From NCBI GenBank assembly GCA_030652115.1, contig JAUSBK010000013.1, positions 1-64,000 on the forward strand: a DNA stretch of 64,000 nucleotides, in the 5' to 3' direction. Below the pieces are notes generated by a model. It saw only the letters and a program-made list of their open reading frames with translations. It searched no databases and was not told where the DNA came from. The translations under genes were made by a program, and so were the position numbers. This DNA comes from Coriobacteriia bacterium (lineage in GTDB: Bacteria; Actinomycetota; Coriobacteriia; Anaerosomatales; Anaerosomataceae). Numbering within the stretch: position 1 is the first letter of the stretch; each line of letters opens with the position of its first letter. Below, one piece after another: positions 55,037 to 58,692 of the stretch.

Positions 55037-55160
55037 TTCCGCACGAGCCGAATAGCCCGACGAGCGGCATCTGCGCTACAATCCGAGCGTAGGGCTGACC
55101 GTTCGGCAGATTACCTGACGAACGGCACACGCCGTGGCTTGAGGGCATTCGGAGGTAGCC

Positions 55161-55901
55161 GTGTCCGATCCCATCAGGGTGCTTGTGGTCGATGACGACG
55201 AGTCCATCGTCGATATGATCCGCATGGGGCTCGAGGCCGAGGGCATGAAGGTCACCTCGGCATCAGACGGCGCCGAGGCGCTCGATGCGCTCCACGCCAG
55301 CCCCACCGACGTCGTTCTGCTCGACATCATGATGCCGCGCGTGGACGGCTGGATGGCGCTCATGGAGATCCGCAACGATCCCGCGACCGCCGACATCCCC
55401 GTCATCATGCTGACCGCCAAGACGCAGGACCTCGCGCGCATCCTCGCGTTCAAGCAGGGCGTGCAGCAGTACGTGACCAAGCCGTTCAATCTCATGGAGA
55501 TGGTAGCGCGGATCCAGAGCCTCATGCGCGGACGCCCGCGCGCCGGGGCTGTCACGGCCGCCGAAGGCGACTTCCGCAAACTCGCCGTGCGCAAGGGCGG
55601 CCGGACCGTGCTGCTCGATCTCGAAGAAGTCGTCTATATCTCGGCGAAGAACAAGTCCACGTACGTGCACACGTACGAGAACCAGTACCTGGTCGACCTC
55701 ACGCTCTCGGAGCTGGAGGAGCGGCTTTCCGCCGACGCATTCCGGCGCCTTCACCGCAGTTACATGATCAACCTCAACAAGGTGAAGGAGATCGTCCGTG
55801 CCGAGGGGGCGTACATGGTGGTCGTGGCCGATCGCGACGAAACCCAGGTGCCCGTGGCGCGCCGCCAGGTGAAATCGTTCCGCGAGGCGGTGGGGATCTA
55901 G
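55161..55901 (+). CDS. Response regulator with LytTR DNA-binding domain
   Basis: 246 residues; GTG 55161 with GGAGGT. Receiver domain: VVDDDESIVDM, Asp in VVLLDIMMP and Lys in YVTKPF. A linker (about 120-140) leads to a LytTR domain with VVYISAKNKSTYVHT and FRRLHRSYMINLNKV. No sensor kinase is adjacent. Its stop overlaps the start of the next gene by one base (TAGTG), so it probably controls the surface-protein locus. Confidence 0.9.
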   Translation: MSDPIRVLVVDDDESIVDMIRMGLEAEGMKVTSASDGAEALDALHASPTDVVLLDIMMPRVDGWMALMEIRNDPATADIPVIMLTAKTQDLARILAFKQGVQQYVTKPFNLMEMVARIQSLMRGRPRAGAVTAAEGDFRKLAVRKGGRTVLLDLEEVVYISAKNKSTYVHTYENQYLVDLTLSELEERLSADAFRRLHRSYMINLNKVKEIVRAEGAYMVVVADRDETQVPVARRQVKSFREAVGI

Positions 55902-57004
55902 TGATACGCACACGGCGGGTCGCGGCGGTCCTCGCGCTCGCGATCTTGCTCGCCGCGCTGCCCGGGGCGGCGCATGCGGAGCGGACGATCGCATTGTCGT
56001 CGGGAACGTTCGCGTTCACGGTGGACGCCGGCGGCAACGGCGAGGGTGAGGTCATCGTCGGCAACGATGGCGACGAGCCGATGAAGGCGCTTGTCTATGT
56101 GAGCGATGTCGAGATCGACGCGGCGGGGGAGCAGACCTTCACGACGCCTCAGCGCGAGGGCGCGAGTCTGATGTCGACCCCGGCCTCGTGGTTCCGCGTC
56201 TACATGCCGGCGGACAGCAAAGCGGTGGGCAACACGCCGTATCTTGAGATGGAGCCCGGCGAGAACATCCCTATCAAGTTCGAGTTCACGCCGCCTGCCG
56301 GCACCGCCCCGGGCGATCACAACGTGGTGATCTTCTTCGAGATGTTCGAGTTCGCCAATGAGACTGAAGGCTCGGCGGCCGTCATCTCCGGTCGTCTCGG
56401 GGCGCGCATCGCGCTTCGGGTGAACGGCACGATCATCGAGAAGGTCACAGTCAAGCCGTTCGAGGTGCCCAAGTTCGTGATCGGAAGGACAGTGCCGTAC
56501 CAGTTCACCCTCAACAATGAAGGCAACGTCAACGAGACCGTGCTCACGATGGTGAGCCTGCTCGACAGCAGCGAGGCAACGCTCACGGCCTCACAGGTAG
56601 CCACCGATACCGCCGTGTTTGCGCAGACGGGCAGACAGTACACGGGTGAGCTCGTGTCGCCGACGGCAAGTTTGGGCCCGCACACGGTCTGGGTGAACAC
56701 CATCTTCCTGGAGGATGGGGCGACGGTACCGACCGAAGTAGTCGAGAAGCGCACCGTCTGGCTCGTGCCGCTGTGGGCCGTGGTCCTGGTCGCATTCCTG
56801 GTGGTCTACTCATTGGGATACCTGGTGTATCGATCCGTGAGGCGGAAGCGTGAACGTCGGGCAGCCAGGGCGGCCCGACACAAGTCGCATCGCGAACGCG
56901 AGGCCGAGGCCGAGGAACGGCGGCAGCGTCGCGAGGCGCGGGCGCAGGAGACGGCCGGGCCGACACGAGGCCTCGAGGACTCGCGCGCAGAATCGACCGA
57001 GTAG
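55901..57004 (+). CDS. Membrane-anchored exported protein, DUF916/WxLIP-like
   Basis: 367 residues; GTG 55901. Signal peptide (about 1-27), then two beta-sandwich domains: FTVDAGGNGEGEVIVGNDGDEPMKALVYVSD resembles the DUF916 opening of WxL-interacting proteins, and PYQFTLNNEGNVNETVLTMV the second. A membrane helix (WAVVLVAFLVVYSLGYLVY) and a long basic tail finish it. In WxL systems this type holds surface proteins at the wall. The match is by pattern, not proof. Confidence 0.7.
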   Translation: MIRTRRVAAVLALAILLAALPGAAHAERTIALSSGTFAFTVDAGGNGEGEVIVGNDGDEPMKALVYVSDVEIDAAGEQTFTTPQREGASLMSTPASWFRVYMPADSKAVGNTPYLEMEPGENIPIKFEFTPPAGTAPGDHNVVIFFEMFEFANETEGSAAVISGRLGARIALRVNGTIIEKVTVKPFEVPKFVIGRTVPYQFTLNNEGNVNETVLTMVSLLDSSEATLTASQVATDTAVFAQTGRQYTGELVSPTASLGPHTVWVNTIFLEDGATVPTEVVEKRTVWLVPLWAVVLVAFLVVYSLGYLVYRSVRRKRERRAARAARHKSHREREAEAEERRQRREARAQETAGPTRGLEDSRAESTE

Positions 57005-57034
57005 GCGCACCGTGTCGCGAACATGAAGAAGGGA

Positions 57035-57067
57035 AGAAGGACCCCGCGCGATGCGCGGGGTCCTTCT
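57035..57067. terminator. Bidirectional terminator
   Basis: A perfect 15-base stem (57035-57049 with 57053-57067) and three-base loop sit between the DUF916-like gene and the convergent small surface-protein gene; the 3' arm ends in CCTTCT. Confidence 0.8.
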
Positions 57068-57083
57068 GTGCGTTGTGCTGCGA

Positions 57084-57551
57084 CTAGTCCTGCGTCACGG
57101 TGTAGGTGACGGTCGCGGTGTAGTCTCCCGGGTCGGTGGTCCAGGGCACGTTCACCGTGTACGTGTCGGTATACGTGTTGGCGCCCTTGGCGCCCGAGGC
57201 CGGGAAGCCCGCCCGCGATAGTCCCATCAGGGCATCCTGGCCGGCCACTGAGGTGGACGAGGTCCAGCTCTTGTTGGACTGAACCGTTACATCCACGTCC
57301 TCGGTGACCGCGGCGGCACCCGGATAGACGTCACCGAACGCGGCCGTCTGCGAGCCGTCCGGGGTGTCGACCGTCAGCGTGAGCTTCGACTTGACGCTCG
57401 CCGTGACCTGGACAGGACTTGCGCCGTTCGTTGCCTCGAGATCGCCATCACCGTTCACGGCGCCGGGGTACGGTACGGCGTCCGCGAACGCGGCTCCCAC
57501 GACACCAAGCACCATGATCGCTGCCAGTGCCAGTACAACTGCCTTCTTCAT
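57084..57551 (-). CDS. Small exported beta-sandwich (WxL-like) protein
   Basis: 155 residues; ATG 57551 with GAGGAGGT. Signal peptide (about 1-24), then an all-beta domain rich in Thr and Val. The C-terminus WTTDPGDYTATVTYTVTQD is shared with the next gene (WTTDPEIPLTATVVYTVTQ), and resembles the end of WxL domains. No sortase signal or membrane anchor. Probably held at the surface by the DUF916-like protein. Confidence 0.7.
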   Translation of the reverse strand: MKKAVVLALAAIMVLGVVGAAFADAVPYPGAVNGDGDLEATNGASPVQVTASVKSKLTLTVDTPDGSQTAAFGDVYPGAAAVTEDVDVTVQSNKSWTSSTSVAGQDALMGLSRAGFPASGAKGANTYTDTYTVNVPWTTDPGDYTATVTYTVTQD

Positions 57552-57771
57552 TGCTTGACCTCCTCTTTGTCCAACGTGCGTGCCATCATGACTGCAGGTT
57601 CGATGCCACTATGATGAGCGGTACAAGCGCGCCTTGACGGCCCCTGCGCGTCCGCCGCAGCTCTCCCGCGCTTTCTTCATCGGCAAGCGTGACAAAGAAC
57701 ACAACCCCGACTTTGACGAACGGTTTTCGGCGATGATAGACGGTCATTCCGTGCTTGCGAGCGGCGCCTCC

Positions 57772-58563
57772 TCACTGCGTCACCGTGTAGACCACGGTCG
57801 CCGTCAATGGTATCTCCGGATCGGTGGTCCACAGCGGCGTCAGAACGTAGTCGTCGACATAGCCGGCCGTGCCGGCCGTCTTCGCACCCGTGGCGGTCCC
57901 CGATACGAGCAGTCCAAGCTCAGTCCAGCTTCCGCCGACCGTGCGGGCGATGGTGTAGTTTGCTGAGGAGACGACCTGTACGCTGACCTGTCTCGCCGAG
58001 GTGGCGACACCCGGATCGATCGTCCCGAAGTCCACGGTCTGCCCCGAACCAGGCGTTGTGATCGTCATGCTGAGATACGGAGCAGCCACGATGCCGTACG
58101 TTTCGCCGCTGATGTTGATCGTCTGGTTCGTCGTCCCCTGACGCGTGAACGTCACGGACGGGATGCTGTACGTGCCCGCGGTTGAGGGGTTCACGACATT
58201 CCCGAACGCGATGTCGAAGCTGGTCCGCTGGGCGATGGGGGTGCCGAGCACGACCGTGACCGTTCGGTTGTCGGCGGCCACCGTCACCACGTCACCCGCG
58301 CCCGGGGAGGTTGCGCCCGAGGCATTGGTGTCGCTCGGGAAGGTCAGTGTGTAGCCGGTCACCGTCTCACCGTTGCCCGTACGGAAGCCGCCGAGATCGT
58401 AGGTGGCAGCGTTGTACGTGCCGTTCGGTGTGACCGTGATGGCGAAGTTGCCCCGGGCGGTCACGGCTTCGGCGACCGGGGCTGGCACCAGCGCGACCGC
58501 GACGACCGCTGCAAGCAATGCCTGCAACGCGATCCGCCGCCGTGCCGTGCCTGCGCGCAGCAT
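57772..58563 (-). CDS. Larger exported beta-sandwich (WxL-like) protein
   Basis: 263 residues; AAGGAG fits ATG 58563. Signal peptide (about 1-33), a Thr-rich N-terminal beta region (about 35-150), then a domain (about 155-263) similar to the 57084 product: FGTIDPGVATSARQVSVQV versus FGDVYPGAAAVTEDVDVTV, and the common end. So the short protein corresponds to the C-terminal half of this one. Function unknown beyond surface location. Confidence 0.7.
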   Translation of the reverse strand: MLRAGTARRRIALQALLAAVVAVALVPAPVAEAVTARGNFAITVTPNGTYNAATYDLGGFRTGNGETVTGYTLTFPSDTNASGATSPGAGDVVTVAADNRTVTVVLGTPIAQRTSFDIAFGNVVNPSTAGTYSIPSVTFTRQGTTNQTINISGETYGIVAAPYLSMTITTPGSGQTVDFGTIDPGVATSARQVSVQVVSSANYTIARTVGGSWTELGLLVSGTATGAKTAGTAGYVDDYVLTPLWTTDPEIPLTATVVYTVTQ

Positions 58564-58692
58564 GCTGCCGTTTGCTCCTTCGGATGTGCAACAGGGCACA
58601 ACTATCCACATCATACATCGGCAAAGAGCAGGCCACCTGTAAGGCACGGGGCTTGTGAACCGACGAACGTGCCCGTGGGCGCGACGAACGCG

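Follow-up and report, generated by a model that had tools for sequence, protein, structure and literature searches.

Organization of the locus

The locus occupies positions 55,161 to 58,563 of the window (the whole 64,000-nucleotide stretch of an Anaerosomatales genome that was analysed). A LytTR response regulator, composed of a receiver and a LytTR DNA-binding domain (55161..55901, plus strand; Pfam Response_reg E 1e-27, LytTR E 7.5e-26), is followed by WIP, a DUF916/WxLIP-like protein (55901..57004, plus strand); the GTG start of WIP and the TAG stop of the regulator overlap by one base, and the two are thus probably translationally coupled. Two genes for exported proteins converge on this pair, both in the same orientation and each with a separate upstream region: B1 (57084..57551, minus strand), a small protein built from a signal peptide and a single B domain, and B2 (57772..58563, minus strand), a larger one with an N-terminal DUF2808 and a C-terminal B domain, whose ATG stands after AAGGAG. 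They take the positions of the 'small' and the 'large' WxL protein, respectively. The 80 bp between WIP and B1 contain a hairpin (57035..57067, assigned to neither strand; -33 kcal/mol, z -5.7 by RNA folding), which is likely a bidirectional terminator for the two convergent genes. An earlier note on this DNA had taken the regulator, the membrane-anchored protein and the two exported beta proteins with their common ending for one locus, and Pfam, structure model and synteny agree on this.

WIP is a relative of DUF916 proteins

WIP consists of a signal peptide, two Ig-like beta domains, a C-terminal transmembrane helix and a basic tail; the signal peptide and the transmembrane helix, both features of WxLIP proteins, are seen by inspection and as helices in the AlphaFold2 model (pLDDT 89.5), at residues 2-18 and, as one long C-terminal helix, at 291-351. 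Searched as single sequences against Pfam, NCBIfam and PHROG, the proteins of the window give no DUF916, DUF3324 or WxL match, and WIP on its own thus does not match PF06030; its homologues do, with 28 of 34 hitting Pfam WxLIP_PGBD (PF06030, DUF916; best E 1.7e-7) and three relatives (G008-G010) lying above the Pfam cut-off for DUF916.

Profile-profile comparison yields the same relationship; its reference set, taken from plasmids of Lactobacillales, comprised ten classical WxLIP proteins and twelve WxL proteins. In hhalign, the WIP family matches the ten classical WxLIP proteins with 98% probability over the full length (E 3e-13); since signal peptides inflate such a score, the comparison was repeated without signal peptide and transmembrane helix, giving 96.2%, and with the first domain alone, giving 97.0% (E 1.2e-10), while 20 column shuffles and one reversal all remained at or below 0.3%. 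Other actinobacterial DUF916 proteins form a bridge, matching WIP at 99.7% and classical WxLIP at 98.6%. For the second domain the picture is different: it reaches only 1.6% against DUF3324/HBD, so that the DUF3324 domain, named in the earlier note as a profile to compare, is not recognisable, the layout of two domains plus transmembrane helix being nonetheless the same. The classical HBD scores 7.5% against the actinobacterial DUF916 proteins, and the second domain of WIP 89.5% against those proteins. The WxLIP signature NQIDKxxxYFDLK is missing near the N-terminus of WIP, where the corresponding stretch reads TIALSSGTFAFTV.

In a Foldseek search of the PDB, the WIP model finds the Enterococcus WxLIP structures 9i1y/9i25 at ranks 2-4 (E 1.7e-9 to 3.6e-9) and aligns to 9i1y over about 270 columns, through both domains. 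It also matches RbmA and the chaperones of chaperone-usher systems (CfaA, CsuC, FimC; E 5e-9 to 1e-6), a likeness that does not discriminate, because WxLIP is itself chaperone-like in fold. A phmmer search of WIP against the PDB returned only low-complexity matches to the tail of BetP, which were set aside.

WIP is thus a member of the wider DUF916 superfamily, with a first domain homologous to DUF916 as the earlier note had supposed, and is not a canonical WxLIP. Compared to WxLIP proteins (DUF916-DUF3324-TM, PF06030 + PF11797; for example Enterococcus faecium EfmWxLIP1, 9i1y/9i25), it shares the signal peptide, the DUF916-type first domain, the second Ig-like domain, the C-terminal transmembrane helix with basic tail, the length (367 residues vs 337-365) and the adjacent genes for a small and a large cargo protein; it differs from them in lacking a recognisable DUF3324 domain and the N-terminal signature, and in forming an operon with a LytTR regulator, the cargo genes being convergent and not part of the same operon.

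B1 and B2 share a C-terminal domain

B1 and B2 both begin with signal sequences and close on similar endings (...PWTTDPGDYTATVTYTVTQD in B1, ...LWTTDPEIPLTATVVYTVTQ in B2). As their families align over 100 columns (99.3% probability, E 1.8e-20), the common ending represents a whole shared domain, the B domain, and not chance; in the whole 2.38-Mb genome it occurs in these two genes only. The N-terminal half of B2 matches DUF2808 (PF10989, E 2e-7), a domain of unknown function that is mainly cyanobacterial.

The earlier note had seen in these proteins a possibly distant type of WxL protein, an identity that the profiles do not bear out. PF13731 (WxL) has no match in the 69 genomes of the order, with a Lactococcus positive control detected, and none among 19 relatives of B1. 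The B profile matches classical WxL with 13% probability, which falls to 2.5% when the B alignment is deeper, whereas the WxL-like neighbours of actinobacterial DUF916 loci reach 97% (E 9.5e-11); against these actinobacterial proteins, B scores 85-86% (E 4.6e-6 at 86%), over the last ~36 columns only. A rotated-profile control of B against WxL does not settle the matter, as the C-terminal block survives rotation unchanged. The two Trp-x-Leu motifs are absent from B1, which has SNKSWTSS and TYTVTQ instead; a W-x-L at the site of the first motif is found only in the B-related proteins of some relatives (SNRPWELS, ANRSWRLQV, STRWNLLV). The best structural matches of the B1 model (AlphaFold2, pLDDT 84.8) are the chaperone-usher pilins CfaB, CsuA/B and FimG (Foldseek; best CfaB, E 7e-4) with low TM-scores of 0.32-0.48, and the solved WxL chain 9i25_A lies outside the top 50. 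As modelled, the C-terminal Ig-like domain of the cargo thus resembles donor-strand subunits.

As in WxL proteins (PF13731), there are small one-domain and large multi-domain forms, and the domain invariably stands at the C-terminus. WxL and B domains also agree in strand pattern and in a C-terminal block of the form VP...GTYTATxTxT, and some relatives carry W-x-L where WxL has its first motif. Unlike WxL, the B domain has no Pfam match, lacks a Trp in its final strand (YTV), is shorter (about 115 vs 160-190 residues), and is nearest to pilins in the fold of B1. Judged by their sequences, B1 and B2 cannot be classed as WxL proteins, and homology of the B domain to WxL is possible at most, since the match is limited to the C-terminal block and the nearest folds are those of pilins; the W-x-L of B-related proteins in relatives is a hint in its favour. 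A match of B1 to DUF4360 (E 0.0015) was seen in one of the 19 relatives and was not retained.

Conservation and co-occurrence

The order Anaerosomatales (OPB41) comprises Gram-positive subsurface anaerobes (PMC9686372). WIP homologues are found in 43 of its 69 genomes, usually one per genome, and B domains in 42; a class-wide search with a single-sequence query found no WIP homologue in the genomes sampled from other orders. Both WIP and B are present in 40 genomes, WIP only in three, B only in two and neither in 24 (Fisher p 3.6e-13, a value that overstates independence because the genomes are related). The neighbourhood is conserved as well, as the earlier note had anticipated: most genomes keep the order M23-ApbE-SudB-GltA-regulator-WIP-[B genes]-DUF711 (Pfam names), in which the M23 peptidase is PcsB-like and the regulator, 66-94% identical in relatives, lies directly 5' of WIP.

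Many relatives have, in place of B2, proteins of ~850-1030 residues (for example L038:2741-5533, L048:8426-11311, L050:9236-11803, L056:2716-5388) that combine FixG_C/Ig_VWA7/MG2-like domains with a B domain at the C-terminus. Outside the order, one locus (L148, G191:C8:3000-12146) has a WIP homologue (profile E 2e-21) adjoining a B-domain protein (2e-10), whose B domain carries W-R-L.

Regulator and direct repeats

LytTR regulators bind direct repeats of 9-11 nt separated by spacers of 10-13 nt (PMC4847170, PMC11347149), and the locus shows this combination of a receiver, a LytTR domain and a direct-repeat candidate operator. LytTR-type repeats lie upstream of B1 (57715..57742, minus strand; ACCGTCTATC-N10-ACCGTTCGTC, with the first two bases at 57743-57744) and upstream of B2 (58662..58690, minus strand; CGTTCGTC-N13-CGTTCGTC, period 21), and an operator is predicted at the regulator's own promoter (55097..55126; GCCGTTCGTCAGGTAATCTGCCGAACGGTC read on the minus strand). 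The pattern CGTYYRTC-N12/13-CGTYYRTC, written only after the sites had been seen, has three matches in the whole genome (2.38 Mb): one precedes B1, one B2 and one the gene of a secreted DUF5648 protein. Both locus repeats are on the correct strand, and the reversed pattern, used as a control, has no match. The third match (G000:C1:124069-124097, minus strand; L111:5070-5098) lies in the gap upstream of the DUF5648 gene, which adjoins an M23/DUF5648 protein, and near-identical site sequences are found in two other genomes (G001 and G004).

A motif learned on the upstream regions of B1 genes is repeat-structured, with a log-likelihood of 189 vs 86-93 in shuffles. The site at the regulator's promoter scores 13.5 with this motif (p about 0.02), and in 20 of 38 loci the corresponding 200 bp contain a match with p<0.05. 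The data-learned motif is clear, whereas a scan with the generic LytTR consensus gives few significant sites. Summed over the 69 genomes, the repeat pattern occurs 94 times and its reversal 15 times; the former include occurrences in relatives without WIP, so that the regulon probably extends further, or else part of the matches fall in coding sequence. No sensor kinase gene is adjacent to the regulator. The repeats before B1 and B2 and the motif at the regulator's promoter are new in this analysis; judging by these putative operators, the locus is probably regulated as a unit. On a plasmid of Enterococcus gilvus, a LytTR regulator and a GHKL kinase (L097:989-1744 and 1-968) likewise flank a WxL cluster, which may be regulated in a parallel way.

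Inspection of the repeats that do not precede B genes led to an unannotated family of secreted proteins of ~100 residues with a near-invariant ANTPWxL, encoded beside and convergent with WIP in about 20 relatives (L036, L042, L044-L056 and others; for example L048:7290-7610, minus strand, and L046:6618-6938, plus strand). The family matches the B domain with 90-95% profile probability and, as far as sequence indicates, is a third component of the system, new in this analysis; the window does not contain a gene for it.

A probable divergent surface-display system

Known WxL clusters combine, in a single locus, an anchor protein with a small and a large cargo protein, and it has been proposed that a strand of the WxLIP completes the WxL sandwich while DUF916 binds peptidoglycan (PMC10599100). 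If a WxL gene cluster is taken to need a WxLIP gene and two or more WxL genes in a span of four genes, the present locus offers one WIP, one small and one large cargo protein, all adjacent, with cargo of no provable WxL identity; the WxL-system layout claimed in the earlier note thus stands for the arrangement and not for the cargo. With a probability of about 0.68, the locus encodes an Anaerosomatales system of surface display, divergent but of the WxL type, in which WIP would retain B-domain proteins at the wall and the LytTR regulator would exert control. It is real and conserved, and most likely works like WxL/WxLIP.

In such a system, WIP would be secreted, its C-terminal helix then keeping it in the membrane and its DUF916-type domain holding B-domain proteins at the cell wall. 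The cargo would be the B domain alone in B1, while B2, or the ~900-residue multi-Ig proteins of relatives, would present other domains. A strand of WIP would probably complete an incomplete Ig-like sandwich in B, as proposed for WxLIP-WxL; this mechanism is the best guess because the anatomy is the same, with a tethered two-domain anchor, a small and a large cargo protein, and a C-terminal Ig-like domain. The regulator, in one operon with WIP, would sense a phosphorylation signal, presumably from a sensor kinase, and bind the direct repeats in front of B1, B2 and its own gene; we propose that anchor and cargo would therefore be made together. In favour of this reading are the DUF916 match of WIP in profile and fold, the cluster composition, the co-occurrence of WIP and B, and the repeats. 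The three WIP-bearing genomes without a B domain count against it, as do the absent DUF3324 match and WxLIP signature of WIP, the lack of a WxL profile match and of WxL motifs in B1 and B2, and the pilin-first structural matches of B1; for the regulation, so do the late choice of the repeat pattern and its occurrence in relatives without WIP.

The same architecture could also serve polymerisation: WIP would then assist assembly as a chaperone-like factor anchored in the membrane, and B1 would be a pilin-like subunit, with strand exchange between B domains building thin extracellular fibres without an usher. Chaperone-usher systems (CfaA/CfaB, CsuC/CsuA-B, FimC/FimG) likewise pair a two-domain Ig chaperone with an incomplete-looking Ig subunit and have the idea of strand complementation in common with the present locus, and the models of WIP and B1 match their chaperones and pilins, respectively; moreover, cultured Anaerosomatales are non-motile and Gram-positive, with abundant pili-like appendages (PMC9686372). 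However, WIP has a transmembrane anchor, the cell wall is of the Gram-positive type and no usher-like gene was noticed in the locus; the chaperone match is shared by WxLIP, the TM-scores to pilins are low, the C-terminal B domain in B2 and in the ~900-residue proteins fits anchoring better than polymerising, and the appendages, reported at 0.8-0.9 nm, are thin for Ig fibres. Fibre assembly is thus unlikely, and its specific form, a monoderm variety of strand-complementation assembly without an usher, in which WIP is a tethered chaperone that completes B subunits and releases them into thin surface fibres, the pili-like appendages of Anaerosomatales, very doubtful; if true, WxL/WxLIP and chaperone-usher systems would be different results of the same principle, Ig strand exchange.

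It is rather improbable that B and WxL, both Ig-like, are unrelated to each other and came to a similar last strand by convergence, WIP, as a DUF916 homologue, having another partner and B1 and B2 being mere neighbours. B does lack an overall profile match to classical WxL, and likeness in a C-terminal beta-hairpin is a common feature of Ig folds, yet the strong co-occurrence and adjacency of WIP and B, the occurrence of the pair outside the order and the W-x-L at the expected site of B-related proteins all speak against convergence. That the proteins are ordinary secreted Ig-fold partners of envelope stress or of a hydrolase, tied to the M23/PcsB-type gene of the conserved neighbourhood and not to display, is most improbable, as M23, ApbE and the oxidoreductase pair beyond GltA look like stable housekeeping context, and repeats and co-occurrence link the regulator to WIP and B only.

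WxL systems have been described almost exclusively from Lactobacillales and Bacillales and are read as tools of gut adhesion or virulence (PMC10599100, PMC9772566). For the system preferred here, host binding is an unlikely role, because the habitat of the order is the subsurface; that anaerobes of the subsurface have a version of it, both conserved and regulated, speaks for wall display as the basic job and for host binding as a later use, which suggests a display system older and broader than a host-adhesion tool. With its candidate regulon, minimal one-domain cargo and shorter B domain, the locus would be a compact model for WxLIP strand complementation.

Related pairs in other Actinomycetota

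The earlier note had called such systems rarely described in this kind of genome, which is fair for this order and too narrow for the phylum, where pairs of DUF916 and WxL-like proteins occur elsewhere. Several of these (L132, L133, L137, L140, L143) resemble the present locus in having an anchor with adjacent cargo; their cargo, unlike the B domain, still matches classical WxL (97%), and the B domain matches this cargo at the C-terminus only (85-86%). Going by sequence, WxL systems look underannotated in Actinomycetota. In these five loci and in four others (L134, L136, L146, L151), DUF916 proteins adjoin proteins ending in WxL-like domains, in which the Trp of the last strand is replaced (TLTLS, TISHTV).
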